This document shows positions 6,798 through 28,082 of a stretch of DNA of 64,000 nt, piece after piece. Source of the DNA: Chelativorans intermedius (GTDB lineage Bacteria > Pseudomonadota > Alphaproteobacteria > Rhizobiales > Rhizobiaceae); assembly GCF_025398255.1 (NCBI RefSeq), contig NZ_JAODNW010000018.1:1-64000 (forward strand). Direction: 5' to 3'. The number at the start of each line of letters is the position of its first letter. The stretch's first letter is position 1. The notes beneath the pieces are model-generated. The model searched no databases. It saw only the letters and a list, made by a program, of their open reading frames with translations, and had not been told where the DNA came from. The translations under genes were made by a program, and so were the position numbers.

Positions 6798-7447
<650 letters not shown>

Positions 7448-7451
<4 letters not shown>

Positions 7452-8575: not shown

Positions 8576-8576
<1 letters not shown>
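8103..8576 (-). CDS. ureE: Urease accessory nickel chaperone UreE
   Basis: UreE (157 residues) is a cytosolic nickel metallochaperone that hands nickel to UreG. It has the N-terminal peptide-binding-like domain and the C-terminal metal domain with the conserved [20 protein letters not shown] core. The tail is histidine-rich ([15 protein letters not shown]), consistent with nickel storage. The ATG at 8576 shares one base with the ureC stop (TGATG), so the two are coupled; a second ATG seven codons in (MNRATAIS) is possible. The tail coding sequence overlaps the ureF start. Confidence 0.94.
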
Positions 8577-10287
<1,711 letters not shown>

Positions 10288-10288
<1 letters not shown>

Positions 10289-10593
10289 CAAAGCGCTCCC
10301 ATGAGCTTTTTCTGAAATCCGTAGACCTTCCGCGCGCCGGAAAGCGGCACCAGCCGCACCTCGCGCGTCTGGCCGGGCTCGAAACGCACGGCGGTGCCGG
10401 CGGCGATGTCGAGCCGCATGCCGCGGGCCTTCTCCCGGTCGAAGGCGAGTCCTTCGTTCACCTCGAAGAAGTGATAGTGCGAACCGACCTGCACCGGCCT
10501 GTCTCCGGTGTTGCTGACTTCCAGCACACATGGATCGGCGCCCGCATTCAGTTCGATCTCTCCGGGCCTGGTGATGATTTCACCGGGGATCAT
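10288..10593 (-). CDS. ureB: Urease beta subunit UreB
   Basis: A structural urease subunit of 101 residues, beginning [18 protein letters not shown] and containing the conserved V[16 protein letters not shown] and [17 protein letters not shown] segments. It assembles with UreA and UreC into the (ABC)3 trimer. It shares one base with ureC downstream (TGATG) and overlaps the small membrane-protein gene upstream by 14 bases, so all three should be co-translated. Confidence 0.97.
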
Positions 10594-10807: not shown

Positions 10808-11110
10808 TCAGCGGATGGGTTCGTGAACGGTGACGAGCTTCGTGCCGTCGGGAAAGGTGGCCTCCACCTGGATGTCGTGGATCATCTCGGCCACGCCTTC
10901 CATCACCTGCTCGCGGGTGATCACATGGGCGCCGGCTTCCATCAGCTCCGCCACCGGGCGACCATCGCGCGCACCTTCCACGACGAAATCGGTGATGAGA
11001 GCGACGGCCTCCGGGTGGTTCAGCTTGACGCCGCGCTCCAATCGGCGGCGCGCCACCATGGCGGCCATGGCAACCAGAAGCTTGTCTTTCTCGCGGGGTG
11101 TAAGGTTCAT
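10808..11110 (-). CDS. ureA: Urease gamma subunit UreA
   Basis: The smallest structural subunit (100 residues), with the family signature [20 protein letters not shown] at the start, [14 protein letters not shown] in the middle, and [20 protein letters not shown] at the end. It follows ureD by 18 bp. It is unfused to UreB, as in most proteobacteria, with a small membrane-protein gene between the two. Confidence 0.97.
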
Positions 11111-11128: not shown

Positions 11129-11974
11129 TCACATGGTCCACAGGCGGGGCAGGGCGCCGGCGCCTGAAAGCAGGGCAATGGCGGGGGCGAGGGCGCGCCG
11201 CAGGGCAAGCCCGGATGGCGCGAGCATGCGCAGCACCAGCCGCTCGCCCATCGCGCTGGCTGCCGCAGCAAGGCCGGGGTCGAGCCTGGCGCGCAGTGCC
11301 CGAAGCTTCTCCTGCGCGTCGGGTGCGATTGCGATCAGGGTGGCAAAGGCGTTGTGGCCAGCAAGCAGCGACAGGCCGTCGCGCTCGAAATCGGCGCCCG
11401 TCAGCCGTGTTGCTTCCGCGTGGACAAGCCGGCCATCGCGATGGATGCGCCATCGGTCGGTGAGCCGCGCTGCGCGTGCGGCTTCGCCCATGGCTTCGCG
11501 CCCCAGCAGAACGGCCTCCACAGCGGTAAAGGTGGCGTCTCCGGCAAGCTCCACCGCGAGCGTGCGCTCAAGATGGCTCTCTTCGAAGAGGATCGTTTCC
11601 TGCGGCAGCCAGTCGACATGCGCGCCAGCGCCGAGTTTCAGAACGGTTTTGATGTGCGCAGGCTCATCCGTGGTGCGGTAGACGCGCTCGCAGGCCTGTG
11701 TGGTCAGCACCAGGCGGGTGCCGGGCGCGGCGTCGGCCTGCCAGTGCACCCGATCGCCGCCGGCAAGGCCGCCGGAGGTGTTGATGAGCACAGCCTCCAA
11801 TGCGCGGTCCCGGGCGCGCGGCAGGCGGATCTTGGCACAGCCTTCCTGGAAGAAGGTATCGAGGCAGGTCTTCTCCCCCCGCAGCTTCGTGCCGAGCCTG
11901 CCCGTGCCGCGAGAGCGCTGCATCGGGGCGGGCGCTTGCGGCATGGATGCCGGGTTGGTTGCGCTGGCTGGCAT
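11129..11974 (-). CDS. ureD: Urease accessory protein UreD
   Basis: UreD (281 residues, also UreH) is the scaffold that docks UreF-UreG on apo-urease for nickel delivery. Family motifs present are LINTSGGLAGGD, TTQACERVYR, WLPQETILFE and LLGREAMGE. It lies five bases downstream of urtE, so urea uptake and urease appear to be one transcription unit. A short Ala/Pro-rich N-terminus precedes the conserved part; the start at 11974 is not certain. Confidence 0.94.
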   Translation of the reverse strand: MPASATNPASMPQAPAPMQRSRGTGRLGTKLRGEKTCLDTFFQEGCAKIRLPRARDRALEAVLINTSGGLAGGDRVHWQADAAPGTRLVLTTQACERVYRTTDEPAHIKTVLKLGAGAHVDWLPQETILFEESHLERTLAVELAGDATFTAVEAVLLGREAMGEAARAARLTDRWRIHRDGRLVHAEATRLTGADFERDGLSLLAGHNAFATLIAIAPDAQEKLRALRARLDPGLAAAASAMGERLVLRMLAPSGLALRRALAPAIALLSGAGALPRLWTM

Positions 11975-11978
11975 GCCT

Positions 11979-12683
11979 TCACACCATCAGGTGGCGCCGG
12001 ATCTCCGGCTGGTCCAGGTCGGCGGCCGGGCCGGAATGGAGAATTTCTCCCCGGTCCATGATGTAGATACTGTCGGCCAGTTCCCGGCAGAAGTCGAGAT
12101 ACTGTTCGACAAGAAGGATCGTCATGCCCATTTCATCGCGCAGGAAGGCGAGCGCGCGGCCGATATCCTTAATGATGGAAGGTTGGATGCCTTCCGTGGG
12201 TTCGTCGAGGATGAGCACCTTGGGACGTGTGACGAGCGCCCGCCCGATGGCCAGCTGTTGCTGCTGGCCACCGGACAGGTCGCCGCCCCGCCGCGCAAGC
12301 ATGTCCTTGAGCACCGGAAAGAGCGTGAAGACCGTCTCCGGGATCGTGCGTTCGTCGCCCTTGAGTGCCGCAAAGCCGGTCATGAGGTTTTCCCGCACCG
12401 TCAGCAGCGGGAAGATCTCGCGCCCCTGGGGCACGTATCCGAGGCCAAGCCGCGCCCGGCGGTAGGGCGGCGCCTTGCCGAGGGCCGAGCCGGCAAGGCG
12501 CACCTCGCCCCCGGCCACCGGGTGCACCCCGACGATGGCCCTCAGAAGCGAGGATTTGCCCACCCCGTTGCGGCCGAGCACGGCGGTGATGGCCGCCGGC
12601 CTTGCCTCGATGCTCACCGCCTTCAGCGCCCGGGCTGCCCCATAGTAGAGGTCGATGCTGTCGACATGGAGTGCGACGGCCAT
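11979..12683 (-). CDS. urtE: Urea ABC transporter ATP-binding subunit UrtE
   Basis: The second ATPase of the urea importer (234 residues), LivF-like. Walker A is GRNGVGKSS, the signature is LSGGQQQQLAIGRAL, and Walker B is VLILDEPTEGIQPSI; the phrase EPTEGIQPS is typical of UrtE rather than branched-chain amino acid LivF. It follows urtD by two bases and precedes ureD. The ATG at 12683 is preceded by GGAAAGGTGAAA. Confidence 0.95.
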   Translation of the reverse strand: MAVALHVDSIDLYYGAARALKAVSIEARPAAITAVLGRNGVGKSSLLRAIVGVHPVAGGEVRLAGSALGKAPPYRRARLGLGYVPQGREIFPLLTVRENLMTGFAALKGDERTIPETVFTLFPVLKDMLARRGGDLSGGQQQQLAIGRALVTRPKVLILDEPTEGIQPSIIKDIGRALAFLRDEMGMTILLVEQYLDFCRELADSIYIMDRGEILHSGPAADLDQPEIRRHLMV

Positions 12684-12685
12684 TT

Positions 12686-13435
12686 TCACCTTCCCAGATA
12701 GCTTTCGATGACGCGCGGATCCGCGCTCACATGGTCGAGGCTGCCCTGAGCGAGGACCGAGCCTTCTGCGAGCACCGTCACGCGCGCCGCCAGATCGCGG
12801 ACGAAGCTCATGTCGTGCTCGACCACCACCACGGAGCGTGTCCTGGCGATCTCCTTCAGAAGCTTCGCTGTCTCCACGGTTTCGGCATCCGTCATGCCGG
12901 CCACCGGCTCGTCGACGAGAAGCAGCTTGGGATCCTGCGCAAGCAGCATGCCGATCTCCAGCCACTGCTTCTGACCGTGGCTCAGATTGGCCGCCAGCGC
13001 GTCGCGGCGCGGGCGCAGGCGGATGATGTCGAGAATCTCGTCGAGCCGGGCCACGTCCTCTTGCGACGGATGGTAGAACCAGGTGGAGAAGACGCCGCGC
13101 GGCTTCTTCAGGGCCAGCGCCAGATTGTCCCACACGGTGTGGCTTTCAAACACGGTGGGCTTCTGGAACTTGCGGCCGATGCCGAGCTCGGCGATGGCCG
13201 TTTCGTCGAGGCGGGTAAGGTCGATTGCACCTTCGAAGAACACCTCGCCCTCGTCGGGCCGGGTCTTGCCGGTGATGATGTCCATCATGGTCGTCTTGCC
13301 GGCGCCGTTGGGGCCGATGATTGCCTGGAGCTCCCTGTGGCCGACGATGAGCGAGAGATTGTTGATCGCCTTGAAGCCATCGAAGGAGACCGAAACGCCG
13401 TCGAGGTAGAGAAGGGTCTGTCTGTCGCTCATCAT
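12686..13435 (-). CDS. urtD: Urea ABC transporter ATP-binding subunit UrtD
   Basis: The first ATPase of the urea importer (249 residues), LivG-like. Walker A is GPNGAGKTT, the signature region reads NLSHGQKQWLEIGMLL (the SHGQKQWLEI form is typical of UrtD), and Walker B is LLLVDEPVAGMTD. The start ATG lies immediately after the urtC stop; the last codons of urtC (GCGGAGTAG) supply the RBS. It should pair with UrtE at the cytosolic face of UrtB-UrtC. Confidence 0.95.
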   Translation of the reverse strand: MMSDRQTLLYLDGVSVSFDGFKAINNLSLIVGHRELQAIIGPNGAGKTTMMDIITGKTRPDEGEVFFEGAIDLTRLDETAIAELGIGRKFQKPTVFESHTVWDNLALALKKPRGVFSTWFYHPSQEDVARLDEILDIIRLRPRRDALAANLSHGQKQWLEIGMLLAQDPKLLLVDEPVAGMTDAETVETAKLLKEIARTRSVVVVEHDMSFVRDLAARVTVLAEGSVLAQGSLDHVSADPRVIESYLGR

Positions 13436-14614
13436 CTACTCCGCGGGTGAGGGGTCCATGCGGGCTGAGCCCTTCGGCGGTCTCGGGGAGCCCTCCTCCA
13501 GGCTGGCGGGGCGATGCCGCGCCTTCATCGCATGCCACGCATCGGCGAGCGTGCCGACGATCCCCCGCGGCAGGAACAGCGTGACGGCGACGAACAGCCC
13601 GCCCAGCGCAAACAGCCAGAACTCCGGGAAGAGGCCGGTGAACCAGGATTTGCCCGCATTCACCAGCACCGCGCCGATGATCGGCCCGACCAGCGTGCCG
13701 CGTCCGCCAACGGCGGTCCAGATGACAATTTCGATGGAGTTGGCCGGTGCGAACTCCCCGGGGTTGATGATGCCCACCTGGGGCACATAGAGGGCGCCGG
13801 CAAGGCCCGCCATCATCGCCGAGGCGGTGAAGGCGAAGAGCTTGTAGCGTTCGACGCGATAGCCCAGGAAGCGGGTGCGGCTTTCGGCGTCGCGCACGGC
13901 GACCAGAACCTTTCCGAGCTTCGAGTTGACGATGGCCGAGCACACCAGGAAGCATAGCCCCAGTGCCACGGCCGAGGCGGCAAAGAGGGCTGCGCGCGTC
14001 GTGCCTGCCTGGATGGGCGCGCCAAGAATGTCCTTGAAGTCGGTCAGTCCGTTGTTGCCGCCAAAGCCCATATCGTTGCGGAAGAAGGCCAGCATCAGGG
14101 CATAGGTCATGGCCTGGGTGATGATGGACAGATAGACGCCGGTGACACGGGAGCGGAAGGCGAACCATCCGAAGACGAAGGCAAGCAGCCCCGGCGCCAC
14201 GACCACCATGACGGCCGAAAACCAGAACATGTCGAAGCCGTACCAGAACCAGGGCAGCTCCTTCCAGTTCAGGAAGACCATGAAATCGGGCAGGATGGGG
14301 TGGGCATAGACGCCGCGATCGCCGATCTGACGCATGAGATACATGCCCATCGCATAGCCGCCCAGCGCGAAGAAGGCGCCATGGCCAAGCGAGAGGATTC
14401 CGCAGAAGCCCCACACCAGATCGAGCGCCAGCGCCAGCATGGCATAGGTGAGGTACTTGCCGAGAAGCGGTACGAAATGGTCGGGCACGCGCAACGGATG
14501 GCCGGAAGGCAGCGCCAGGTTGGAGGCGGGCACGGCAATGGCAATCAGCAACAGGGCCGCAAGCACCCAGAGAGCCTTGCCGTCAAGCGCGCGAAGCAGC
14601 GTTTTCGTGATCAT
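13436..14614 (-). CDS. urtC: Urea ABC transporter permease UrtC
   Basis: A LivM-like permease of 392 residues with about ten membrane segments. Motifs include DLVWGFCGILSLGHGAFFALGGYAMG (about residues 65-90), the urea-type FWYGFDMFWFS, and GNNGLTDF. The ATG at 14614 overlaps the urtB stop by four bases. The C-terminal tail after residue 360 is a polar Pro/Ser extension. It forms the translocation pore with UrtB. Confidence 0.95.
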   Translation of the reverse strand: MITKTLLRALDGKALWVLAALLLIAIAVPASNLALPSGHPLRVPDHFVPLLGKYLTYAMLALALDLVWGFCGILSLGHGAFFALGGYAMGMYLMRQIGDRGVYAHPILPDFMVFLNWKELPWFWYGFDMFWFSAVMVVVAPGLLAFVFGWFAFRSRVTGVYLSIITQAMTYALMLAFFRNDMGFGGNNGLTDFKDILGAPIQAGTTRAALFAASAVALGLCFLVCSAIVNSKLGKVLVAVRDAESRTRFLGYRVERYKLFAFTASAMMAGLAGALYVPQVGIINPGEFAPANSIEIVIWTAVGGRGTLVGPIIGAVLVNAGKSWFTGLFPEFWLFALGGLFVAVTLFLPRGIVGTLADAWHAMKARHRPASLEEGSPRPPKGSARMDPSPAE

Positions 14615-16227
14615 GCGTCCACCGCCCGGCCCTTGAGGGCGAACAGGCCCCGCGGGCGCCGCTGGATGAAGAGGATGATGAAGACGAGGATCAGGATCTT
14701 GCCGAGCACGGCGCCGGCATAGGGCTCCAGAAACTTGTTGACGACGCCGAGCGTGAAGGCGCCCACCAGCGTGCCCCACAGATTGCCGACGCCGCCGAAA
14801 ACCACCACCATGAAGGAATCGATGATGTAGCTTTGGCCGAGATTGGGCGAGACATTGTCGATCTGCGAGAGCGCGACGCCGGCCATGCCGGCGATGCCGG
14901 AGCCGAGCCCGAAGGTCATGGCGTCCACCCAGGGCGTGCGGATGCCCATGGCCGAGGCCATGCGCCGGTTCTGCGTGACCGCCCGCATCTGCAGGCCGAG
15001 CTGCGTGCGGTTCAGCACCGCAAGAAGCACGGCAAAGACGAAGAGCGCGAAGGCGACGATCCAGAGCCTGTTCCAGGTGATGGACAGCCCTCCCAGCTCG
15101 AAGGCGCCCGACATCCAGGCGGGATTGCCCACCTCGCGGTTGTTGGGGCCGAAGATGGTGCGCACCGTCTGCTGCAGCACCAGGCTCAGCCCCCAGGTGG
15201 CGAGCAGCGTCTCCAGCGGTCGCCCATAGAGCCAGCGGATGATGCCGCGCTCGATGGCGATCCCGACCAGGGCGGCAATCAGGAAGGCAAGCGGCAGGGC
15301 AATGGCCAGCGAATAGTCGAACAGGCCCGGAAAGGAGGTGCGGATGACCTGCTGCACGGCGAAGGTCGTATACGCACCCAGCATGACGATTTCGCCATGC
15401 GCCATGTTGATGACGCCCATCACGCCGAATGTGATGGCAAGCCCGATGGCGGCCAGCAGAAGCACGGAGCCGAGCGACAGCCCATACCAGACGTTCTGGA
15501 GCGCATCCCACAGGGCAAGCCTGCGTTCGACGGACGCAATGCCGCTCCTGAGGGCGGATTGCACCGGCGGCGCGGCGCCGGCGAGTGCACCCGTCAGCAT
15601 GGCAAGCGCCTCGCGGTCGCCGCGCTCCGCCAGCATCTCCACTGCAGCGAGCTGTTCCTCGACGCTCGTCTCGGTCTTCAGGACGATGGCGGCGCGCGCC
15701 TGCTCCATGACCCTCCTGACATCGGCATCGCTTTCCCTCGCAAGGGCCTTGTCCAGCAGGTCCAGCGCATCCGGCTCGGCCGTCTTCAGCAGGTTGCGCG
15801 CTGCCGACAGGCGCACCGGGGCCCTGGGGCTCATGAGGGTGAGCTGGGCGATGGCGCCGTCGATGGCGCGGCGCAGCCGGTTGTTGACCCGGATCTTTTC
15901 CAGGGCGCCCTTCTCGACGGTGCCGAGCGCCTCGCCGCTCAGCGCATCGGAGATGGCGTAGCCCTCGCCGGAACGTCTGGCGGCGACCACCCGACCGTCG
16001 GCCTCGTGCAGGTAGAGGTCACCCTCGCCGAGGACGCTGAGGAGACGTGCCACGCGGTCGTCGCCGGTTTCAGCCAGCGCAAAGATCACCTTTTCGCGCT
16101 CGGAATAGCCGCCTTCGGGCAATGCCCTCACGAGGGCCTCGACGGTGTCTGCCTGTGCGAGCGCACCGGGCGCGCCAGTGAGCAGGAGCGCCAGGAGAAG
16201 CGTCAGTATGAGGCGGATCGGGTGCAT
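14611..16227 (-). CDS. urtB: Urea ABC transporter permease UrtB
   Basis: A LivH-like permease of 538 residues. It has a signal peptide (about 1-25), then a helical extracytoplasmic domain of about 210 residues (helical repeats such as VEALVRALPEGGYSEREKVI), and then the membrane domain from about residue 240 with GLAITFGVMGVINMAHGEIVMLGAY. The long N-terminal domain is a known trait of UrtB and separates it from amino-acid LivH. It overlaps urtC by four bases. The 78-bp gap from urtA contains a strong hairpin. Confidence 0.95.
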   Translation of the reverse strand: MHPIRLILTLLLALLLTGAPGALAQADTVEALVRALPEGGYSEREKVIFALAETGDDRVARLLSVLGEGDLYLHEADGRVVAARRSGEGYAISDALSGEALGTVEKGALEKIRVNNRLRRAIDGAIAQLTLMSPRAPVRLSAARNLLKTAEPDALDLLDKALARESDADVRRVMEQARAAIVLKTETSVEEQLAAVEMLAERGDREALAMLTGALAGAAPPVQSALRSGIASVERRLALWDALQNVWYGLSLGSVLLLAAIGLAITFGVMGVINMAHGEIVMLGAYTTFAVQQVIRTSFPGLFDYSLAIALPLAFLIAALVGIAIERGIIRWLYGRPLETLLATWGLSLVLQQTVRTIFGPNNREVGNPAWMSGAFELGGLSITWNRLWIVAFALFVFAVLLAVLNRTQLGLQMRAVTQNRRMASAMGIRTPWVDAMTFGLGSGIAGMAGVALSQIDNVSPNLGQSYIIDSFMVVVFGGVGNLWGTLVGAFTLGVVNKFLEPYAGAVLGKILILVFIILFIQRRPRGLFALKGRAVDA

Positions 16228-16305: not shown

Positions 16306-17601
16306 TCAGCTCGCGCCGCCGCAGGTTTCGGTTTCGGTGTTGTAGTTCCCGCAGTTGATCGGGTCGGTCCAATCCGCCTCGATCATCTTGGATTCGGGCA
16401 GGAAGTCGGACCAGGCATCGCCCGGCACGGTATCCTCGGTCTCCCACACCACCTCGAACTGGCCGTCGTCCTGGATTTCGCCGATAAGCACCGGCTTGGT
16501 GATGTGGTGGTTGGGCAGCATCCTGGCCACACCGCCGGTGAGATTGGGCGTCTCCAGTCCGATGATGGCATCGAGCACCGCGTCCGTATCGGTGGTGCCG
16601 GCCTTCTCGACCGCCTGAACCCAAAGATTGAAGCCGATATAGTGGGCTTCCATCGGATCGTTGGTCACGCGGTCTTCATCCCCGATGAAGGCGTGCCACT
16701 TGTCGATGAATTCGGCGTTCTGCGGCGTGTCGACCGACTGGAAGTAGTTCCAGGCCGCCAGATGTCCCACCAGCGGCGCGGTGTCGATGCCGGCAAGCTC
16801 TTCCTCTCCCACCGAGAAGGCGACGACGGGGATGTCGGTTGCGGAGATGCCCTGGTTGGCAAGCTCCTTGTAGAAGGGCACGTTTGCATCGCCGTTGATG
16901 GTGGAGACCACGGCCGTCTTCTTGCCGGCCGAGCCGAAGGCCTTGATGTCGGAGACGATGGTCTGCCAGTCCGAGTGGCCGAAGGGCGTGTAGTTGATCA
17001 TGATGTCGTCATCGGCAACGCCCTTGTCCTTGAGATATTGCTCGAGGATCTTGTTGGTCGTGCGCGGATAGACATAGTCGGTGCCGGCCAGCACCCAGCG
17101 CTCGACCCCTTCCTCGTTCATGAGGTAGTCGACGGCGGGAATGGCCTGCTGGTTGGGGGCGGCGCCGGTGTAGAAGACGTTGCGCTGGCTCTCCTCGCCC
17201 TCATACTGGACGGGGTAGAAGAGGATGGAGTTCAGCTCCTCGAAGACCGGCAGCACCGACTTGCGGCTGACAGATGTCCAGCATCCGAAGACGGCAGCGA
17301 CTTCGTGCACGGAAATCAGTTCGCGCGCCTTCTCGGCGAAGAGCGGCCAGTCGGAAGCCGGGTCGACGACAACCGCCTCCAGCTTCTTGCCGAGAAGCCC
17401 GCCCTTCTTGTTCTGCTCCTCGATCAGGAAGAGCATGGTGTCCTTGAGCGTCGTCTCGGAGATCGCCATGGTGCCCGACAGCGAATGCAGGACGCCGATC
17501 TTGATGGTCTCCTCCTGCGCGAGGGCCGTGCCTGCGGAAAGGCAGAGCGTGCCGGCGAGCGCTGTCGCAAGAACCGTGCGACGGGTGAGTGTTCTGGTCA
17601 T
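16306..17601 (-). CDS. urtA: Urea ABC transporter substrate-binding protein UrtA
   Basis: The periplasmic urea receptor (431 residues). A signal peptide with a twin-arginine-like start (TRTLTRRTVLATALAGTLCLSAGTALA) covers about residues 1-28. The mature part is a Peripla_BP_5/FmdDEF-type fold with the urea-specific motifs FGCWTSVSRKSVLPVFEE and LFYPVQYEGEE. It is the first gene of the leftward urea block. The upstream 314 bp are shared with the divergent hybrid kinase gene and include a palindrome 76 bp from this start. Confidence 0.96.
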   Translation of the reverse strand: MTRTLTRRTVLATALAGTLCLSAGTALAQEETIKIGVLHSLSGTMAISETTLKDTMLFLIEEQNKKGGLLGKKLEAVVVDPASDWPLFAEKARELISVHEVAAVFGCWTSVSRKSVLPVFEELNSILFYPVQYEGEESQRNVFYTGAAPNQQAIPAVDYLMNEEGVERWVLAGTDYVYPRTTNKILEQYLKDKGVADDDIMINYTPFGHSDWQTIVSDIKAFGSAGKKTAVVSTINGDANVPFYKELANQGISATDIPVVAFSVGEEELAGIDTAPLVGHLAAWNYFQSVDTPQNAEFIDKWHAFIGDEDRVTNDPMEAHYIGFNLWVQAVEKAGTTDTDAVLDAIIGLETPNLTGGVARMLPNHHITKPVLIGEIQDDGQFEVVWETEDTVPGDAWSDFLPESKMIEADWTDPINCGNYNTETETCGGAS

Positions 17602-17915
17602 CTGTGTGTTCCCCTGAAATTCGTTGAGGCAGAGAGAGTCTCGTGCCGGAGGGAACTTTGCAGGCGAGCGCGCCAGGTGCCTATACGTTGAACGACGTAG
17701 GCACGGCGTCGCGCGGTGCGGTGGTCTGCGGCCTGCGTGGATTGGGGCACCGCCGGCCGAACCCTCCGCCATCGATGCCGGAACGGGCGGCAAGGACAAA
17801 TCCGCTTGCAGGTCTTGCCTTGCCGGCGCGATAATGCGGTCTTGGGAGGAGAACGGCAAACGAGCCGCAACAAGCCGTCATCGAAAGAATGGCGGCGAGG
17901 GGAACATGAGGGGCG
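17602..17915. other. Divergent promoter region between urtA and the hybrid kinase
   Basis: A 314-bp spacer with no gene, serving both the urea block and the sensor gene. It contains the GTGCCTA/TAGGCAC palindrome listed separately. On the urtA strand a sigma-54-like TGGCGC...TGC lies just downstream of that palindrome, but its GG-GC spacing is one base too long to accept. Confidence 0.6.
17677..17704. promoter_or_regulatory. Candidate operator palindrome upstream of urtA
   Basis: Perfect 7-bp arms GTGCCTA and TAGGCAC flank 14 bases that contain two ACGT tetramers (17685-17688 and 17695-17698). The element lies 76 bp upstream of urtA and 212 bp upstream of the kinase gene. The position suits an activator site for the urea genes; the neighbouring LuxR-type response regulator is the natural candidate. 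Inference from position and symmetry only. Confidence 0.4.
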
Positions 17916-20900
17916 ATGGCGCGGCAGCGGATTCTTCCCATCAGGCGCGAATACAATCGCTGGGTCGCCAACGAGACCCTTGAGGACTATGCGCTGCGTT
18001 TCACGGCCAAGAGCGCCCGGCGTTTTTCCAGCCGGCGCATCTCACAGACGGCCATTGGTGCCATTTCCTTCCTGGCACTGGAGGCGATCGGCGGCGCGAT
18101 AACGCTCTCCTACGGCACGGCCAATGCCCTTGCCGCGATTCTCGTCGCTTCGGTGGTCATCCTCGCCGTCGGCGTTCCGATCTCGCGCTATGCCACGCGC
18201 CACGGGCTTGACATCGATCTGCTGACGCGTGGAGCGGGATTCGGCTATATCGGTTCGACCATCACCTCGCTGATCTATGCGAGCTTCACCTTCATCCTGT
18301 TTGCCATCGAGGCCTCGATCATGTCGAGCGCGCTGGAGCTTGCCTTCGGCATCCCGCTGTGGATCGGCTATATCGTGAGCGCGGTGGCGGTGATCCCGCT
18401 TGTCACCCACGGGGTAAGGCTCATCAGCGGCTTTCAGCTTCTCACGCAGCCGGTCTGGATCGTGCTCAACATCCTGCCCTTTCTCTTCATTGCCTGGCTC
18501 GACTGGGAGCGGTTCGATCTCTGGCGGGCCTTCCCGGGCGTCGACGCGGCGCCCGACGCGGTTTCGGCGCTGGAGGTCGCGAAGTTCGGAGCGGCCTCGG
18601 CGGTGATCCTGGCGCTGATGACGCAGATCGGCGAGCAGGTGGATTTTCTGCGTTTTCTGCCGCCCAAGGGGGCGGCCGGCCGGCGCCATCGGCTGGGCGT
18701 GTTTCTCGCCGGTCCCGGCTGGGTCTTGCTGGGCGCGCCGAAGCTGATTGCCGGGTCGTTTCTTGCGGTCCTGGTTCTGTCTCTGGGCGTGCCGCCCGAC
18801 CATGCCTCGGAGCCGGCGCAGATGTATGCTGCCGCCTTCGGCTACATGCTCCCGAACGAGACGCTGGCCTTGATGCTGATGGCCGTCTTCGTCGTCGTCA
18901 GCCAGCTCAAGATCAATGTCATGAACGCCTATGCGGGCTCGCTCGCCTGGTCGAATTTCTTCTCGCGGCTGACCCACAGCCACCCTGGTCGCGTCGTGTG
19001 GCTCGTCTTCAATGTCGCCATAGCGCTTCTTCTCATGGAGCTCGGCATCTACCGCCTGCTGGAGGAGACCCTTGCCGTCTTCTCCATCGTCGCCATGGCG
19101 TGGCTGACCACGGTGTCGGCCGATCTGTTTATCAACAAGCCGCTGGGGCTTGCGCCTCCCGGCATCGAGTTCAAGCGGGCTCATCTTCACGACGTGAACC
19201 CGGTGGGGCTTGGTTCCATGGCGATCTCCGGCGGCCTTGCGCTGGCTGCCCATTTCGGCGCATTCGGGCAGATGGCGGCCGCCCTTGCCCCCTATGTTGC
19301 GCTTGGGGCCGCCTTCATCGCCGCCCCCGCCATCGCCTGGGCCACGGGCGGGCGCTACTATCTGGCGCGCAAGCCACGCAGGGCCTGGGCCGGGGTCGGC
19401 ACCGTCACCTGCTCGATCTGCGAACATCCCTTCGAGCCCGAGGACATGGCCTGGTGTCCGGCCTATGCCGCGCCCATCTGCTCGCTGTGCTGCTCGCTTG
19501 ACGCGCGTTGCCACGATCTGTGCAAGCCCAGGGCCAATCTGCGCGCGCAGGCGATGGCGCTTGCCGAGGGCCTGTTGCCGGCGGTGGCGGTGGAGAAGCT
19601 CAAGACCCGGCTTGGCCGCTTCGCCATGGCGATGGCGTTCTCGGTGGCACTGCTCGGGGCCATTCTGGCGTTGGTCTATGCCTTTGCCGTCAGTGCGGCG
19701 CCGCAGACGGCAGAGGTGGTGGGCGGCACCATCCTGGTGGTGTTCTTCGTGCTGTGCGTGGTGGCAGGCATTGTGAGCTGGTTTCTGGTGCTTGCCCATG
19801 ACAGCCGCAGGATTGCCGAGACGGAGAGCGCCCGGCAGAACGCGGCGCTGATGCGGGAGATCGCCGCGCACCGCAAGACCGACGCAGCGCTGCAAAGAGC
19901 AAAGGAGAAGGCCGAGGCTGCCAATCAGGCCAAGAGCCGCTATGTCGTGGGCCTCAGTCACGAGCTGCGCACGCCGCTCAATGCCGTGCTCGGCTATGCC
20001 CAGATCCTTGAACGGGAGGAGGGATTGCCGGCGCACTGGCGCAGTTCCCTCGGGGTCATCCGTCGCAGCGCGGAGCATCTGTCGGGTCTGATCGACGGTC
20101 TGCTCGACATCTCGAAGATCGAGGCCGGCCGTCTGCAGGTCTATGCAAACGAAATCAGCCTGTCCGACTTTCTCGATCAGATCGTCGGCATGTTCCGCCT
20201 GCAGGCGCAGGCCAAGGGGCTCGTCTTCTCCCATCAGCGCGATGCCGGCCTGCCTGCCTATGTGCGCACGGACGAGAAGCGGCTGCGCCAGATCCTGGTG
20301 AACCTCCTTTCCAACGCCATCAAGTTCACCGACCATGGCCGGATCGACTTCTCGGTGCGTTACCGTTCAGAGGTGGCGAGCTTTTGCGTCAGCGACAGCG
20401 GCCCCGGCATTGCGCCGGAGGATCGGGAGCGCATTTTTGAGCCCTTTGCGCGCGGCAGGGCCGAGCGCGACCGCCTTTCCCCAGGGCTTGGGCTGGGACT
20501 GACCATCACCAAGCTGCTGACCGAGACGCTGGGGGGCGAGATCCGCGTCGACAGCGAGCCCGGACGGGGATCCACCTTCCAGGTGCGGCTGATGCTGGCA
20601 AAGGTGGACCGGCCGGCGGCCCTGAAGGCGCAAAGCCGCCGGGTGTTGGGCTACCGGGGCGCGCGGCGCATCATCATGGTTGTGGACGACAATGCCGAGC
20701 ACCGCGAGATGATGCGGCAGATGCTGCAGCCGCTCGGTTTCACGGTTCTGACCGCCGTCGATGGGCCGGACTGTCTGGCGATGGTCGAAAGCGCGGCCCC
20801 CGATCTCTTCTTCATCGACATCCACATGCCGGGCATGAGCGGCTGGACGCTGGTGGAGCGGCTGCGCGAAAAGGGGTTGGCCACGCCCATCATCATGCTG

Positions 20901-21287
20901 TCGGCCAATGTCGGAGATGGCATCGCCAGGATGGACCGCGACGCCGGCCACAATGGTGCCGTGGCAAAGCCCTTTGGCCTGCGTCAGCTCTTGGAGACGA
21001 TTGCCGCCCAGCTGCACATTGAGTGGATCGAGGAGGAAGACGGTCAGGCGCGGCCGCGGATGCCCGCCGCGCGCAGGCAGGCGTTGAAGTCGCCCGGGGC
21101 GGAGCATCTGCGGGAGCTTTTGAGCCTCGGCAGGATCGGTCATGTGCGCGCCATCGACCGCAAGCTCGCCGAACTTTCGCGCCAGCCGGAAAACGCCCCC
21201 TTGGTGGAGCGGCTGAGGGCGCATATGGATGTCTATGACTTTGCCGGATACACCAGGCTTCTGGAGAGCATGAACGCCGATGAGTGA
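17916..21287 (+). CDS. NCS1-permease-fused hybrid sensor histidine kinase
   Basis: A 1123-residue fusion. Residues about 15-480 form a nucleobase:cation symporter-1-like membrane domain with about 12 segments, opening NETLEDYALRFT and containing DIDLLTRGAGFGYIGST. Residues 499-536 are a Cys cluster: C499, C502, C514, C522, C525, C526, C532, C536, suggesting a metal site. Two more membrane segments (about 570-625) and a short coiled coil follow. Then come HisKA with H682 in SHELRTPLN, a HATPase domain (NLLSNAIKFT, DSGPGIAPED, GLGLGLTI), and a receiver with D968 in FFIDIHMPGMSG. About 120 residues follow the receiver. It is divergent from urtA and overlaps its response-regulator gene. By analogy with CbrA, where a transporter domain is fused to a kinase, it may couple uptake or binding of a purine- or urea-related solute to gene control. 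Ligand and target are inferred. Confidence 0.85.
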   Translation: MARQRILPIRREYNRWVANETLEDYALRFTAKSARRFSSRRISQTAIGAISFLALEAIGGAITLSYGTANALAAILVASVVILAVGVPISRYATRHGLDIDLLTRGAGFGYIGSTITSLIYASFTFILFAIEASIMSSALELAFGIPLWIGYIVSAVAVIPLVTHGVRLISGFQLLTQPVWIVLNILPFLFIAWLDWERFDLWRAFPGVDAAPDAVSALEVAKFGAASAVILALMTQIGEQVDFLRFLPPKGAAGRRHRLGVFLAGPGWVLLGAPKLIAGSFLAVLVLSLGVPPDHASEPAQMYAAAFGYMLPNETLALMLMAVFVVVSQLKINVMNAYAGSLAWSNFFSRLTHSHPGRVVWLVFNVAIALLLMELGIYRLLEETLAVFSIVAMAWLTTVSADLFINKPLGLAPPGIEFKRAHLHDVNPVGLGSMAISGGLALAAHFGAFGQMAAALAPYVALGAAFIAAPAIAWATGGRYYLARKPRRAWAGVGTVTCSICEHPFEPEDMAWCPAYAAPICSLCCSLDARCHDLCKPRANLRAQAMALAEGLLPAVAVEKLKTRLGRFAMAMAFSVALLGAILALVYAFAVSAAPQTAEVVGGTILVVFFVLCVVAGIVSWFLVLAHDSRRIAETESARQNAALMREIAAHRKTDAALQRAKEKAEAANQAKSRYVVGLSHELRTPLNAVLGYAQILEREEGLPAHWRSSLGVIRRSAEHLSGLIDGLLDISKIEAGRLQVYANEISLSDFLDQIVGMFRLQAQAKGLVFSHQRDAGLPAYVRTDEKRLRQILVNLLSNAIKFTDHGRIDFSVRYRSEVASFCVSDSGPGIAPEDRERIFEPFARGRAERDRLSPGLGLGLTITKLLTETLGGEIRVDSEPGRGSTFQVRLMLAKVDRPAALKAQSRRVLGYRGARRIIMVVDDNAEHREMMRQMLQPLGFTVLTAVDGPDCLAMVESAAPDLFFIDIHMPGMSGWTLVERLREKGLATPIIMLSANVGDGIARMDRDAGHNGAVAKPFGLRQLLETIAAQLHIEWIEEEDGQARPRMPAARRQALKSPGAEHLRELLSLGRIGHVRAIDRKLAELSRQPENAPLVERLRAHMDVYDFAGYTRLLESMNADE

Positions 21288-22194
21288 GCTTGCCCCGCGG
21301 GGGGACATCGTGCTGGTGGTCGACGATTCGCCCGAGGCGCTCGGTTTCCTCACCCGTGCGCTGGAGGAGGCCGGTGTCACCGTTCTGGTGTCCACAAGCG
21401 GCGAGGCGGCCCTTTCCGTGGTCGAGAAGCTGGTGCCGGATGTGGTGCTGATGGATGCGGTGATGCCCGGCCTCGACGGCTTCGAGACCTGCCGCAGGCT
21501 CAAGGCGTCGGCGCGTCTTGCGCATGTACCGGTCATCTTCATGACGGCGCTCACCGAGACGGAGCATGTGGTGCATGCGCTGGAGTCGGGCGGCGTCGAC
21601 TATCTGACAAAGCCGATCGACCTTGAGGAGCTTGCCGCGCGCATGCGCGTGCACCTGGCCAATGCGCGGCGCGCCCAGAGCGCCCGTGTGGCGCTCGATG
21701 CGGCGGGGCGGCATCTGATGGCCTTTTCCGCCTCCGGCGCGGTGCACTGGGCAACACCCCAGGCGTCCCGCCTGCTCGATGCTGCCGGGGCGGGCGAGAA
21801 CCTTCGCGCGCTGCTCGGAAAGCGTGTGCGGGAGTGGCTTGCCGCCCGCGACGTGGCGTCGATCGCCGGCGGCGAGGTGATGCTGCAGCCTGACGGACAG
21901 GAGGAGCTCCAGCTTGTCTGCCTCGGCATCATCGGTCCGGACGAGCATCTTTTCCGTCTCGTGGCACGGGGGGAGCGGAACCAGGAGGAAACGCTGCGTC
22001 AGCATTTCGGCCTCACCCTGAGGGAGAGCGAGGTTCTGCTCTGGATCGCTCGCGGCAAGTCCAACCGTGACATCGCGGAGGTGCTGGGCCTGAGCCCGCG
22101 CACGGTCAACAAGCACCTGGAACAGATTTACATCAAGCTCGGCGTGGAAAATCGCGCCTCGGCCGCCGTCAAGGCCATGCACGTGCTCGCTTAG
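21280..22194 (+). CDS. Response regulator: receiver plus LuxR-type HTH
   Basis: A 304-residue DNA-binding response regulator. The receiver spans about 8-125, with acidic D15-D16, phosphoacceptor D59 ([11 protein letters not shown]) and the K of LTKPID. A linker of about 110 residues resembles a degenerate sensory segment. The C-terminal GerE/LuxR HTH runs about 240-300 ([28 protein letters not shown], shown in part: [20 protein letters not shown]). The ATG overlaps the last codons of the kinase gene by eight bases, so the two form a matched pair. The likely target is the divergent urt-ure unit, perhaps through the palindrome at 17677. The receiver looks intact and phosphorylatable. Confidence 0.88.
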
Positions 22195-24276: not shown

Positions 24277-25251
24277 ATGAAGACGTTGCTGACGACTGCC
24301 GCAAGCGCGGCGGTGCTTGCCCTGAGCGCTGTGGCGGCGCAGGCGCAATGCGACTGGAAGCCCGAGCGGGCGGTCACCTACATCGTGCCGTGGGGTGCCG
24401 GCGGCGGCACCGATGCCAACTCGCGCATGGTGGCCAGCATGCTGGAACGCAAATGGGGAGTCCCCTTCAATGTGGTCAACCGCACGGGCGGCAATGGTGT
24501 GACCGGGCATTCGGCGATCGCCAATGCCGAGCCGGATGGCTACACGATCGGTGCCGCGACGGTGGAGATCAACACCATGCACTGGGTGGGCCTGACCGAC
24601 CTGACCTATGAGGACATCACCCCCCTGGCCCTCGTCGATATCGTGCCGGCCAGTGTGCTTGTGCGCAAGGACAGCCCCTTCGAGAGCCTGCAGGATCTGC
24701 TCGACCATGCGCGCGAGAATCCGGGCGAGCTTACGGCATCGGGCACCTCGCAGGGCGGCATCTGGCATCTGGCCCTGGCCGGCATGCTGAATGCCGAGGG
24801 CCTGGCGCCCGACGCGATCCGCTGGATTCCCTCCCAGGGTGCGGCACCCGCCTTGCAGGAGCTGATTGCCGGCGGTGTCGATGTGGCCACGCCGGCCCTG
24901 TCGGAGGGCAAGTCGCTGGTCGAGTCGGGCGAGGTGAGGGCGCTTGCCTATATGCACGACACGCGCATGGAGGCGCTGCCGGACGTGCCCACCACGAAGG
25001 AGCTTCTCGACAGCGGCTGGACGCTGGCGGCCTGGATCACCGTAAGCGGCCCGGCCGGTCTTCCCGAGGAGATCGCCTGTTCCTACGAGGCGGCCTTGAG
25101 CGAGCTGTTCGCGACCGAGGAATGGGCGGAGTTCAAGGCCAGCCGCGGAGCCGATGTGGTCTCCATGAGCCGCGAGGAGCTGGCGGAGATGCTGCGCACC
25201 TCCAACGTCGCCCTTGGTGAGACCATCGAGGCCATTGGCCTGGCCAAGTGA
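24277..25251 (+). CDS. tctC: Tripartite tricarboxylate transporter substrate-binding protein
   Basis: The periplasmic receptor (324 residues) of a TTT-family importer. A signal peptide covers residues 1-23 (MKTLLTTAASAAVLALSAVAAQA). The mature part shows the Bug-family landmarks IVPWGAGGGTDANSR, NRTGGNGVTGHSAIANAEPDGYTIG and VPTTKELL. These proteins bind carboxylated compounds such as citrate, tartrate, malonate or aromatic acids. An RBS AAAGGGAGG lies upstream. First gene of a four-gene operon behind the LacI operator. Confidence 0.93.
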   Translation: MKTLLTTAASAAVLALSAVAAQAQCDWKPERAVTYIVPWGAGGGTDANSRMVASMLERKWGVPFNVVNRTGGNGVTGHSAIANAEPDGYTIGAATVEINTMHWVGLTDLTYEDITPLALVDIVPASVLVRKDSPFESLQDLLDHARENPGELTASGTSQGGIWHLALAGMLNAEGLAPDAIRWIPSQGAAPALQELIAGGVDVATPALSEGKSLVESGEVRALAYMHDTRMEALPDVPTTKELLDSGWTLAAWITVSGPAGLPEEIACSYEAALSELFATEEWAEFKASRGADVVSMSREELAEMLRTSNVALGETIEAIGLAK

Positions 25252-25312
25252 AGCATCCTTAGGAAGAAGGAGCGCATTCCGGGTGTCCCCGGGATGCGCC
25301 GGGCAGACGACG

Positions 25313-25780
25313 ATGATCAACCGGACGGATTTGCTGGCGGGGGTTGGGCTGTTCGTGCTGGGCGCGGCCATGGCCATCGAAGCGCGGGGCTTCCCGAGCC
25401 TTGGCGGCATGGCCTTCGGGCCTGATCTCTTCCCCACCATAACCGCGGTGGGCCTGATGGTCAGCGGTGTTGGCATTGTCGCAGAGGGGGCAACCCCGGC
25501 GCGTCGCGCCGCGGCGGCGCAGGCCGGCGAGCAGGCGCGCGCCCTGTGGCCGATGCTGGCGGTGCTGCTCACCATCGCCTTCTTTGCCTTGACCCTGCCG
25601 GTGCTTGGCTTTCACATCGCCGCCGCATTGGCAATGCTCGCCGCCGTTCGGGTGTTCGCAGGCGGCTGGGGGCTGGCTCTGTCGGTCGCCATCGTGGCGC
25701 CGGTCATAACCCATGTCATCTTCTACACATTCCTGCGCGTACCCTTGCCGTGGGGGCTGATGGCCCCCCTTGCGTGGTAG
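25313..25780 (+). CDS. tctB: Tripartite tricarboxylate transporter small membrane subunit TctB
   Basis: A 155-residue membrane protein with four hydrophobic segments (about 8-26, 38-58, 78-100 and 104-145). The TctB hallmark FGPDLFPTITAVGLM is at about residues 36-50. The ATG at 25313 follows tctC by about 60 bp; longer frames have no family match. It works with TctA in sodium- or proton-driven carboxylate import. Sequence conservation in this family is always low, so context matters here. Confidence 0.85.
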   Translation: MINRTDLLAGVGLFVLGAAMAIEARGFPSLGGMAFGPDLFPTITAVGLMVSGVGIVAEGATPARRAAAAQAGEQARALWPMLAVLLTIAFFALTLPVLGFHIAAALAMLAAVRVFAGGWGLALSVAIVAPVITHVIFYTFLRVPLPWGLMAPLAW

Positions 25781-25785
25781 ATCCC

Positions 25786-27306
25786 ATGGATATCGCAGCC
25801 ATTCTTGCCGCTGTTCTGGCGCCCAAGCTTGTCGTGACCGTGGTGGTGTGCACGTTCTACGGCGCCTTTGTCGGTGCCATGCCGGGCCTGACGGCCACCA
25901 TGGCAGTGGCGCTTCTGGTGCCTTTTACCTATTTCATGGACCCGGCACAGGCGGTGGCCGCGATTGTCGCAACCACTACGACGGCCATCTTTGCCGGCGA
26001 TATCTCCGGCGCCCTGTTGAGGATGCCGGGCACGCCGGCCTCGGCGGCCTATGTGGAGGACAGCTATGCGATGGCGCGCGGCGGGCGGCCGCGCACGGCG
26101 CTGTTCGTTTCCCTGTTCGCCGCCTGCATCGGCGGCATCATCGGCGTTGCCATCCTTTCGGCGGCTGCCCCGCAGCTTGCGCGCGTGGCGGCCAGATTTT
26201 CGAGCGACGAGATGTTCTGGCTCGCCTGCCTGGGCTTGAGCTGCGCGGTCTTTGTCGGCGGGGCTTCCGTGCCGCGCAACTTCGCAAGTCTCTTCATCGG
26301 CCTCGCCATTGCGACCGTCGGCATCGACGTGGCGGTCGGCCATCCCCGTTTCACCTTCGGCATCAACGATCTTCTCGATGGCATCTCCTTCATCCCGGCC
26401 ATGATCGGCATGTTTGCGGTTGCCGAGCTGCTGCGCAATGCGGAGACGCGGGACCCGGTGCGGCTCGGCCGCCTGAAGGTGGAGGGGCTTGGCAAAGCGG
26501 TTGCCGCCGGCTGGCGCGAGGTGCGCGGCCGGAAGATCAATGTCGCCCGTTCGGGCATTGCCGGAACGGTGATCGGTTCGCTGCCCGGGGCGGGAGCCGA
26601 TGTGGCGGCATGGATCTGCTATGCGATTTCGCGCCGCTTCTCCAGGACGCCGGAAAGGTTCGGCAAGGGCCATACCGAGGGCATGATCGACGGCGGTGCC
26701 GCCAACAATGCGGCGCTGGCAGGCGCCTGGACGCCGGCGCTTGTCTTCGGTATTCCCGGCGACAGCGTGACGGCCATCGCCATCGGCGTGCTCCTCATGA
26801 AGGGGTTGACGCCGGGACCGCAGATCTTCAGCACCGATGCGCTTCTCGTCTACACGCTGTTCGGATCCTTCTTCCTGGCCAATCTCGTCATGCTCCTGTC
26901 GGGCACGCTGGCCATTCTTGCCGCAACCTTCCTGCTGCGCGCGCCGCGTTCCGTGCTCATGCCCAGTGTTCTGATCCTCTCCATGCTGGGGGCCTATGCC
27001 ATTCTCGGCAGCACCACTGCGATCTGGATCGTTCTGGCGCTCGGCCTTCTGGGTTATCTGATGAGCCATGCCGAAATCCCCATCGCTCCGGCCATTCTGG
27101 GCATTGTCCTGGGGCAGGTGGTGGAAGACAATTTCATGGTTTCGATGATGAAGGCGCAGGGCGACCTGTCGGGTTTCTTCGCCCGTGAGACCGCTGCGTT
27201 TCTGGGCGTGGCGACGATTCTGATATGGGGTCTTCTGCTCGTGCGGGCCGGTCTTGAACTGGCCGGACGCCGTCCGGCCGCATCTTCGAGGGAAACGAAC
27301 ACATGA
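25786..27306 (+). CDS. tctA: Tripartite tricarboxylate transporter large permease TctA
   Basis: The large permease (506 residues, about 12 segments). The first conserved repeat reads GAFVGAMPGLTATMAVALLVPFTY (in part GAMPGLTATMAVALLVPFTY), the GDISGALLRMPGTPAS loop follows, and the second repeat is GSLPGAGADVAAWICYA. The pattern GNPxxxA seen in some relatives is replaced here by GAANNAALAGAWTPALVFGIPGD-like sequence, still within family variation. It starts five bases after tctB and overlaps the aldolase gene by four bases. Confidence 0.94.
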   Translation: MDIAAILAAVLAPKLVVTVVVCTFYGAFVGAMPGLTATMAVALLVPFTYFMDPAQAVAAIVATTTTAIFAGDISGALLRMPGTPASAAYVEDSYAMARGGRPRTALFVSLFAACIGGIIGVAILSAAAPQLARVAARFSSDEMFWLACLGLSCAVFVGGASVPRNFASLFIGLAIATVGIDVAVGHPRFTFGINDLLDGISFIPAMIGMFAVAELLRNAETRDPVRLGRLKVEGLGKAVAAGWREVRGRKINVARSGIAGTVIGSLPGAGADVAAWICYAISRRFSRTPERFGKGHTEGMIDGGAANNAALAGAWTPALVFGIPGDSVTAIAIGVLLMKGLTPGPQIFSTDALLVYTLFGSFFLANLVMLLSGTLAILAATFLLRAPRSVLMPSVLILSMLGAYAILGSTTAIWIVLALGLLGYLMSHAEIPIAPAILGIVLGQVVEDNFMVSMMKAQGDLSGFFARETAAFLGVATILIWGLLLVRAGLELAGRRPAASSRETNT

Positions 27307-28082
27307 TGATGAGAAATCGCCTGAAGGCGCGAATCGCGGCTGGCGAGACCGTAACCGGCGCCTGGCTGGAGCTTGGCAGCCCCGAGGTGGCGGAGATCCT
27401 GGTGCGCACCGGTTGGGATGTCATCGTCATCGACTGCGAGCACGGGGTGGCGGACCTTGAAGAGGGGTTCAATCTGGTGCGCGCCGTCGAGGCAGCCGGT
27501 GGCGAGGCGGTGATGCGCGTTCCCGACGGCGCGGATACGACGCTCAAGCGGGCGCTCGACCGCGGCGTGCGTTCGCTGATGGTGCCGATGGTCAACTCCG
27601 CCGAGCGCGCGCGCGCGGTTGCGCACTCATGTCTTTACCCGCCGCGTGGCGGGCGCGGCTATGCCGCTCCCATCGTGCGCGCCTCCGGTTATGGCGCCTT
27701 GCCCGGCTATGCGGCCAATGCCCACCAAGAGCTGTTCCTGATGGTGCAGATCGAGACGGCCCAGGCGGTTGCCGAGCTCGATGCCATTCTGGCCGTCGAA
27801 GGCATCGACATGGCCTTCGTCGGTCCCAATGACCTTGCCGGATCCCTCGGGTTCTTCGAGCAGCTCGAGCATCCGCGCGTACAGGAGGTGCTGGGCGAGA
27901 TCGAGGCCAGGATCGGTCGCGTTTCGCGCACCTTCGGGACAATCGAGGGGGCCGGGCGTGACTATGCGCGGCTCAAATCCCTCGGCTATCGCTTCATCGT
28001 CGGGCCCAACGACATCAGCATGCTGGCGGGTGCCGCGCGCGCCGCGGCGGCGGTGCGCGACGCGCAGTTGAAGCACGGCTGA
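27303..28082 (+). CDS. HpcH/HpaI-type aldolase family protein
   Basis: A class II pyruvate aldolase-fold enzyme of 259 residues. Visible motifs are VIDCEHGVADLEE (catalytic His region), the metal-site acid in QIETAQAVAELD, and VGPNDLAGSLG. Relatives cleave 4-hydroxy-2-ketoacids to pyruvate or oxaloacetate plus an aldehyde. It overlaps tctA (ATGA), so uptake and cleavage are linked: the imported compound or its dehydrated product is probably a 2-keto-sugar acid or hydroxy-keto dicarboxylate. The exact substrate cannot be named. The start region reads MMMRNRL; any of the three methionines may be used. Confidence 0.88.
   Translation: MMMRNRLKARIAAGETVTGAWLELGSPEVAEILVRTGWDVIVIDCEHGVADLEEGFNLVRAVEAAGGEAVMRVPDGADTTLKRALDRGVRSLMVPMVNSAERARAVAHSCLYPPRGGRGYAAPIVRASGYGALPGYAANAHQELFLMVQIETAQAVAELDAILAVEGIDMAFVGPNDLAGSLGFFEQLEHPRVQEVLGEIEARIGRVSRTFGTIEGAGRDYARLKSLGYRFIVGPNDISMLAGAARAAAAVRDAQLKHG

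Follow-up and report, generated by a model that had tools for sequence, protein, structure and literature searches.

The described systems closest to the one reported here are histidine kinases that carry a transporter fold. In CrbS/CrbR, according to the accessible part of PMC5715377, a transporter-fused hybrid kinase works with a LuxR-type partner, and an inverted-repeat operator precedes the genes that deal with the compound sensed. CbrA, an SLC5-STAC-PAS kinase (PMC13022988, accessible part), uses a carrier fold as its sensor, RpuS/RpuR of the rhizobium Sinorhizobium fredii joins a transporter-fused kinase to a LuxR-type regulator (PMC9100948, likewise in part), and in Ks-Amt5 the carrier fold of a nitrogen nutrient, an ammonium transporter, is fused to a histidine kinase as sensor (PMC5764959, in part). 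Here we describe a locus that shares these traits in Chelativorans intermedius (Rhizobiaceae), found within positions 1 to 64,000 of contig NZ_JAODNW010000018.1 (assembly GCF_025398255.1); this whole stretch of 64,000 nucleotides is referred to as the window. It encodes a hybrid sensor kinase of 1123 residues (17916-21287, + strand) and a LuxR-type response regulator of 304 residues (21280-22194, + strand), whose open reading frames overlap by 8 bp. The kinase start lies 314 bp from the start of urtA (17601, - strand), and urtABCDE followed by ureDABCEFG run on the opposite strand. This layout, with an overlapping regulator and a pair diverging from urtA-ureG, had been proposed in the initial annotation and is borne out, as are the positions given there for eight cysteines within 38 residues (C499-C536), for H682 and for D968. 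We consider it likely that the locus encodes a dedicated urea two-component system, in which the transporter fold serves as the receptor and the LuxR-type regulator, acting through an operator, activates urtA. A literature search, with most subscription papers beyond its reach, turned up no report of a two-component system in bacteria that is dedicated to urea or formamide.

The kinase core is that of a hybrid histidine kinase, with Pfam matches to HisKA (residues 673-738, 19932-20129, containing H682), HATPase_c (residues 785-894, 20268-20597) and the receiver Response_reg (REC; residues 920-1029, 20673-21002, with D968). Ahead of it, on the same + strand, are a domain with 12 hydrophobic segments that is assigned below to the NCS1 transporter type (residues 1-485, 17916-19370), the eight-cysteine module (residues 499-536, 19410-19523) and a transmembrane hairpin predicted from the AlphaFold model and from hydropathy (residues 565-644, 19608-19847). 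The regulator combines REC with GerE (Pfam), as is the case in LuxR/NarL-type proteins.

Linkage to urea and amide genes, and a candidate operator

Among 151 genomes of the family, 46 have a match to the N-terminal part of the kinase; one of these matches is a sodium/alanine symporter (G027) and in another genome (G050) the kinase is split over frames. At the level of the class 26 of 385 genomes were matched, one by a part only, and at that of the phylum 57 of 398, a few of them weakly. A wider contig search returned at least 589 relatives, Sinorhizobium meliloti 2011 included, of which the best 80 were kept, leaning to close relatives. In S. meliloti 2011, a laboratory symbiont (locus L276), the sensor part, the regulator and urtA are 73%, 65% and 83% identical, respectively, and the operator described below has two mismatches. 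Plasmid records with a match numbered 528, of which 342 are from Klebsiella. On one Klebsiella plasmid (L277, 5900-16234), a kinase (48%) is accompanied by a LuxR-type regulator match, urt-type ATP-binding cassette (ABC) genes, a nitrilase-type formamidase and a 1-mismatch copy of the operator described below, the cluster being located upstream of an arsenic operon. In G050, where the kinase runs over two frames (L042), the best UrtA match of the genome is at E 2.6e-22; sensor and target seem to have been lost together.

For the neighbourhood survey, 192 loci with wider flanks were used (187 with the kinase, four without it and one with a stand-alone carrier, L272). The name urtA was given to genes at least 55% identical to that of the window; a second type, urtA2, is about 40% identical and in the family sample still scores over the UrtA cut-off of NCBI. 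True urtA is in the neighbourhood of the kinase in 83 of the 187 loci, 78 of them divergent, and urtA2 in 76, all divergent (hereafter urea-type and amide-type loci, respectively). Urease genes without urt were found in eight loci and formamidase (fmdA) with AmiS in four, where the kinases are shorter, as in the annotated Paracoccus locus. Altogether, 167 of the kinase loci stand beside urtA, urtA2 or urease genes and four more beside formamidase, a linkage that supports the dedicated urea-scavenging control system put forward in the initial annotation. A formamidase-type gene (matches of at least 60 residues) is present in 71 of the 76 urtA2 loci, in 66 as FmdA over 150 residues, and in none of the 83 urtA loci; the other five urtA2 loci sit at contig ends, where no more than 3.5 kb of upstream sequence is available. 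To judge from this gene content, the sister clades beside formamide genes would probably sense formamide or other short amides. After near copies (97%) were merged, 170 loci were left (78 with urtA, 68 with urtA2, eight with urease, four with formamidase, 12 with none), and the regulator is adjacent in 166 of those. Shorter, non-hybrid kinases beside fmdA and AmiS/UreI occur at L040, L041, L256, L258 and L279, the last of which is the annotated Paracoccus locus, with its receivers on separate proteins. Two genomes, G090 (L002/L035) and G011 (L015/L032), hold copies of both the urea-type and the amide-type system.

A 16-bp palindrome, TACGTCA-NN-TGACGTA, was derived from eight-mers shared by the divergent regions, and a site was counted when it had at most three of 14 mismatches. 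Such a site lies upstream of urtA in 28 of the 30 urea-type loci where the two genes are adjacent and in 45 of the 53 with other genes between kinase and urtA; six of these 53 have a site at the kinase. The remaining 3.48 Mb of the loci contain 30 sites. Since it is found at urtA even in separated loci, the site follows urtA, not the gene of the kinase. L215-L217 have a 3-mismatch operator upstream of their kinase gene. In the window, the candidate operator TACGTTGAACGACGTA (17684-17699, no strand assigned) precedes the predicted target gene urtA (16306-17601, - strand; TIGR03407 over cut-off), which encodes the urea ABC binding protein; its outer TACGT...ACGTA is intact. The pattern TACGT-N6-ACGTA occurs nowhere else in the 4.18-Mb assembly (2 for a control pattern), and sites with three mismatches or fewer occur at 15 places (97 for the control). 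Given that the latter are not rare in this assembly, the window site is distinguished only by where it lies and by its intact outer pentamers.

Within the family sample, the site is present at urtA in 34 of 35 genomes that have a urea-type kinase and true urtA (the exception being G090), among them all five in which urtA is about 11-60 kb away. It is present in one of 49 genomes with UrtA and without the kinase (49 taken of 58 listed); the difference has a Fisher p of 3e-21, descent being ignored. Seven genomes have only an amide-type kinase, and the six of these that list a separate UrtA over the cut-off were tested, with no site at three mismatches or fewer in any of them. The exception among the kinase-less genomes, G126, has the regulator (46%) and a kinase of 509 residues that lacks the NCS1 and cysteine parts, and is thus a natural sensor-less variant. 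At this locus (L379, 9619-11148) the kinase keeps one transmembrane helix, HisKA, HATPase and REC and is divergent from urtA, with a perfect operator. The regulator (E<=1e-60) was found in 43 of the 151 family genomes, made up of all 42 whose hybrid kinase is intact plus G126.

On the urtA side of the operator, the hexamer GATAGT starts exactly 23 bp after it in 47 of the 73 operator loci, and at no other offset within the 60 bp searched; the corresponding hexamer of the window is the -10-like CAAAGT (17655-17660, - strand). With GATAGT taken as the -10 element, the centre of the operator comes to lie near -43, the usual location for LuxR-type activators. From this arrangement we infer that the regulator would activate urtA and not repress it. 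A sigma-54 promoter for urtA was rejected, as a simple scan detected one facing urtA in only one of 106 intergenic regions. Towards the kinase, a sigma-54-like promoter was seen in 38 of the 71 amide-type regions (e.g., L174-L199), many of the 71 being near copies, versus a mean of 1.2 in shuffles and two of 30 urea-type regions. NtrC/sigma-54 may control the amide-type system itself.

The sensor domain and the cysteine module

Single-model searches left the N-terminal domain unnamed. Kinase residues 1-660 matched none of the transporter models of Pfam or NCBIfam, and PF02133 gave no match over the Pfam cut-off in the window protein, among the families of 20 members or in a search of the whole own genome. 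By profile-profile comparison (hhalign), the sensor profile A2 (78 members) matched an independent NCS1 set of eight proteins (E. coli CodB and seven found by PF02133) at 97.7%, with E 1.9e-12 over 351 columns, and an SSS set of 11 at 0.5%, on which SSS/SLC5 membership was rejected. When two carriers, L272 and L274, were added to the NCS1 set, the match rose to 99.6% (E 4e-24, 404 columns); these two had been found with our own profile and are not independent, and the match held without them at a lower score. An AlphaFold model of residues 1-645 (predicted local distance difference test, pLDDT, 89.3; predicted template modelling score, pTM, 0.90) had as its best Foldseek matches in the PDB CodB (E 2e-9) and Mhp1 (E 2.5e-8), ahead of Nramp and SSS structures, and its 12-helix carrier fold is closest to these two. 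Thus, the NCS1-like permease that the initial annotation had placed on the kinase is upheld and, as far as profiles and the predicted fold can tell, the N-terminal domain is an NCS1-type transporter domain and not one of the SSS/SLC5 type. CodB and Mhp1 themselves, in the accessible part of PMC9379551, are stand-alone carriers, with which the window kinase has its fold and a distant sequence homology in common.

Stand-alone carriers in other genomes are also matched by profile A1; L272 and L274 match PF02133, and L273 matches no family. The strongest non-kinase match of the sensor profile is L272 (7949-9439, about 29% identity), a stand-alone NCS1 carrier with a weak UrtA-like match nearby and possibly a carrier of amide or urea. 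The family-search matches at about E 1e-4 were rejected, L049 and L050 being sodium/alanine symporters. A sequence search of the PDB with the profile returned two zinc-binding-type proteins, with E above 2 and over the cysteine module, and the same search with L272 matched no carrier.

The clustered cysteines of the window kinase are residues 499, 502, 514, 522, 525, 526, 532 and 536. Their conservation, on which the initial annotation had staked its reading, is nearly complete: 189 of 190 aligned members, that of the window among them, have all eight, and the cluster is therefore not due to chance. In the remaining member, L196, the frame breaks off after 181 residues, and the split copy L042 was excluded before counting. 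When 398 genomes were searched with a profile of the module (A3), 57 matches reached E<=3.5e-20, each of them within an open frame of kinase size (894-1365 residues), the next match being at E 3e-4 in a frame of 50 residues. Modelled alone, the module reached a pLDDT of 80.5 and a pTM of 0.57, and most of the 50 Foldseek rows shown for it are PHD, RING, ZZ or FYVE domains, none of them significant (best E 0.22). Its eight conserved candidate ligands are the number found in cross-brace zinc modules of the RING/PHD/FYVE kind. Because of this weak resemblance to zinc folds, the eight cysteines more likely form a structural binuclear module, with zinc as the predicted metal, than serve the nickel or redox input that the initial annotation had considered. 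It is followed by the transmembrane hairpin, whose second helix extends in the AlphaFold model towards HisKA and the kinase core.

Pocket residues of CodB, taken from the accessible part of PMC9379551, were mapped onto the kinase through an alignment of about 18% identity, in which single positions may be off by one turn; the mapping is identical with the independent NCS1 set. In that source, both aromatics that sandwich the base are conserved in NCS1 carriers. CodB W108 falls on L128 of the window kinase (F in 55 and L in 23 of 78 members) and F204 on L234 (L in 76 of 78), and the sodium-site (Na2) threonines T278 and T279 fall on K332 (78 of 78) and I333 (77 of 78). Neither the base-stacking aromatic pair nor the Na2 Thr/Thr of NCS1 carriers is kept in the window kinase, and T125, E132, Q237, E240, Q241, K332 and N334 are invariant in all 78 members. 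For the window protein, these changes point to a polar pocket that takes a small ligand and lacks the sodium site. Residue 128 is Leu in 79 of 91 urea-linked and Phe in 82 of 82 amide-linked members, and its position is the better of only two among 640 that separate both main groups. In a quick tree of the kinase (109 rows) it changes three times, each L group being urea-linked where the linkage is known. As a proven specificity switch it was rejected, with F in five of 83 urtA-linked and seven of eight urease-only members and an independent-pair test at p 0.25-0.5. In the same tree the full neighbour label changes 12 times, partly through contig ends, and the urea versus amide label alone six times. 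The partners have thus switched between urea and amide several times with the receptor domain constant, which fits a receptor for the shared H2N-C(=O)- group.

Proposed signal path and rival explanations

The architecture, the NCS1 homology, the conserved cysteines, the gene linkage, the operator and its co-occurrence with the regulator are read from sequence, and beyond them we infer direct operator binding, activation of urtA, urea as the ligand, zinc in the module and a phosphate route. In the proposed path, urea would be received by the NCS1-type domain, altered at its base-stacking and sodium sites, and a ligand-driven movement of this domain would pass through the structural zinc module and the transmembrane hairpin to the kinase core. 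Phosphate would then move from H682, perhaps over D968, to the LuxR-type regulator, which would bind TACGTCA-NN-TGACGTA, its centre some 43 bp ahead of where urtA transcription is predicted to start, and activate urtABCDE and probably the downstream urease genes too. A broader claim, for which we see an even balance, is that of a new class of transceptor kinases, in which an NCS1 carrier fold has come to receive urea and formamide, the simplest carboxamides, together with an attached zinc module that occurs in no other protein type among the 398 genomes, an operator of its own and a residue 128 that may tune specificity.

The initial annotation had left the signal between purine catabolism and urea. 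Its urea part is supported, and the linkage and the formamidase sister loci point to small amides as well; the purine part is not, given the leucines at the base-stacking sites of the window protein and the lack of a named purine gene among the neighbours scanned. Allantoin is another compound moved by NCS1 carriers, and its ureide group, like that of hydantoin, is shared with urea, which purine breakdown can yield. An NCS1 domain that senses a nucleobase, allantoin or another purine breakdown product could in this way anticipate urea, and most members of the sister clades do keep Phe at one base-stacking site (55 of 78). Against this, the base-sandwiching aromatics are L128 and L234 in the window protein, the scan of window neighbours, some of them without a family match, brought up no purine gene by name, and a large sister group is tied to formamidase, to our knowledge an enzyme outside purine breakdown. 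Although cytosine and hydantoin are NCS1 substrates as well (PMC9379551, accessible part), we regard a purine signal as quite unlikely. A cue of another kind, such as nitrogen status, a metal or redox input through the cysteine module, or the state of the urea ABC transporter, with the NCS1 domain as a mere scaffold, is possible but doubtful. The cysteine module is as conserved as the pocket, urease needs nickel, and the G126 kinase persists without its NCS1 and cysteine parts beside the same operator; however, the module is unchanged in formamidase-linked members, eight-cysteine cross-braces are usually structural, and a scaffold would have no need of polar pocket residues that are invariant in 78 of 78 members.

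Similarly tentative is the idea that the N-terminal domain is mainly a working low-affinity carrier of urea or amides and that signalling is its by-product, as in a strict transceptor. The 12-helix fold is complete, which speaks for it, but the Na2 threonines are replaced by Lys332/Ile333 and an ABC importer gene is already present in 159 of 187 loci, and Ks-Amt5 shows, in the accessible part of PMC5764959, that transport may be lost from a carrier fold while its sensing persists. That the genes are neighbours by coincidence and the system acts on others is highly improbable. In part of the family 1-60 kb separate the kinase from urtA, and urtA occurs without the kinase, yet the operator stays with urtA when the kinase is elsewhere and is missing at urtA in 48 of 49 kinase-less genomes. 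Urea received by the NCS1-type domain stays our preferred reading.

Several observations weigh against the preferred explanation as a whole. The ligand assignment draws on gene linkage and on the CodB alignment, at about 18% identity, and CodB as a single sequence is a weak match to the sensor profile (9.4%, hhalign). Phe is kept at the W108 site in 55 of 78 members, and in these F128 clades the argument against an aromatic ligand is weaker. The window operator is degenerate, with three mismatches, and in the sister genome G090 a site in the right place has four. Only 33 of the 76 amide-type loci have a site (30 of the 71 with formamidase in view, three of the five at contig ends), as do one of eight urease-only and none of four formamidase-only loci; the consensus is therefore not valid family-wide. 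The half-site TACGTC is present in 59 of the 71 amide-type regions versus 12.3 in shuffles. On a tree of UrtA, operator and system each change eight times, and it offers only four supported independent pairs, of which about 3.5 agree and none oppose (sign test p 0.125-0.25); the association between operator and system is strong, and regulation by the system well supported, with few independent events behind both. Moreover, 16 of the 187 loci have no linked genes in view. Five of them are cut by contig ends, one (L042) is split, and six have urtA about 11-60 kb off on the same contig, L045 and L167 being one contig. The other four (L215-L217 and L219) have full-length kinases and the regulator and are unexplained; ten neighbour frames of L215 and L219 were scanned and no urea or amide family was named, several frames having no match at all. 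Finally, 58 of 100 family genomes with UrtA over the cut-off have urtA without the kinase, so urea can be used in the absence of the system.

The genes of the window and the described systems

The urea genes opposite the kinase, all on the - strand, were named by NCBIfam (urtA, urtB, urtE, ureC), by Pfam class and position (urtC, urtD) or by Pfam (the other ure genes). After urtA come urtB (14611-16227, TIGR03409), urtC (13436-15511, BPD_transp_2 and located between urtB and urtD, its frame start probably too far upstream), urtD (12686-13435, ABC_tran and located between urtC and urtE) and urtE (11979-12674, TIGR03410). The urease genes follow as ureD (11129-11974, Pfam UreD), ureA for the gamma subunit (10808-11110), ureB for beta (10288-10593), ureC for alpha (8576-10285, TIGR01792), ureE (8103-8579), ureF (7448-8404, start uncertain) and ureG (6798-7451, with the CobW/HypB/UreG domain of Pfam and its position as the basis). 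Downstream of the regulator, at 24277-28082, are genes for a TctC/TctA-type transporter and an HpcH/HpaI aldolase, with no tie to the urea system seen.

In comparison with the systems named at the outset, the window kinase is not a member of the SLC5/STAC family. CrbS/CrbR combines SLC5 with STAC and serves acetate use, whereas here NCS1 is combined with the eight-cysteine module in another pathway, and the ACTU motif of CrbS/CrbR, e.g., TACTACCATCGTCGAAT, is a different palindrome from the urtA operator (PMC5715377, accessible part). RpuS/RpuR likewise belongs to the SLC5/STAC family and, unlike the window system, controls the pyruvate symporter MctP (PMC9100948, in the part available). CbrA has SLC5 and a four-helix STAC bundle in place of NCS1 and the cysteine module; both proteins have a lysine at the Na2 site, K196 in CbrA and K332 here by alignment, not necessarily on the same helix (PMC13022988, in part). 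Where STAC would provide its four-helix bundle, the predicted model has a small beta/cysteine module and then the transmembrane hairpin, and on this reading the cysteine module would occupy the place held by STAC in CbrA. Ks-Amt5 differs in its Amt fold and in being a trimer; the accessible part of PMC5764959 describes neither a cysteine module nor an operator for it and does not identify its regulator. For the system of the window, receptor, regulator, operator and target promoter can all be named, across hundreds of genomes, and it bears on how soil bacteria respond to urea. If our reading is true, a zinc module may replace STAC as the coupling piece and NCS1 joins the carrier folds that are used as sensors of kinases.

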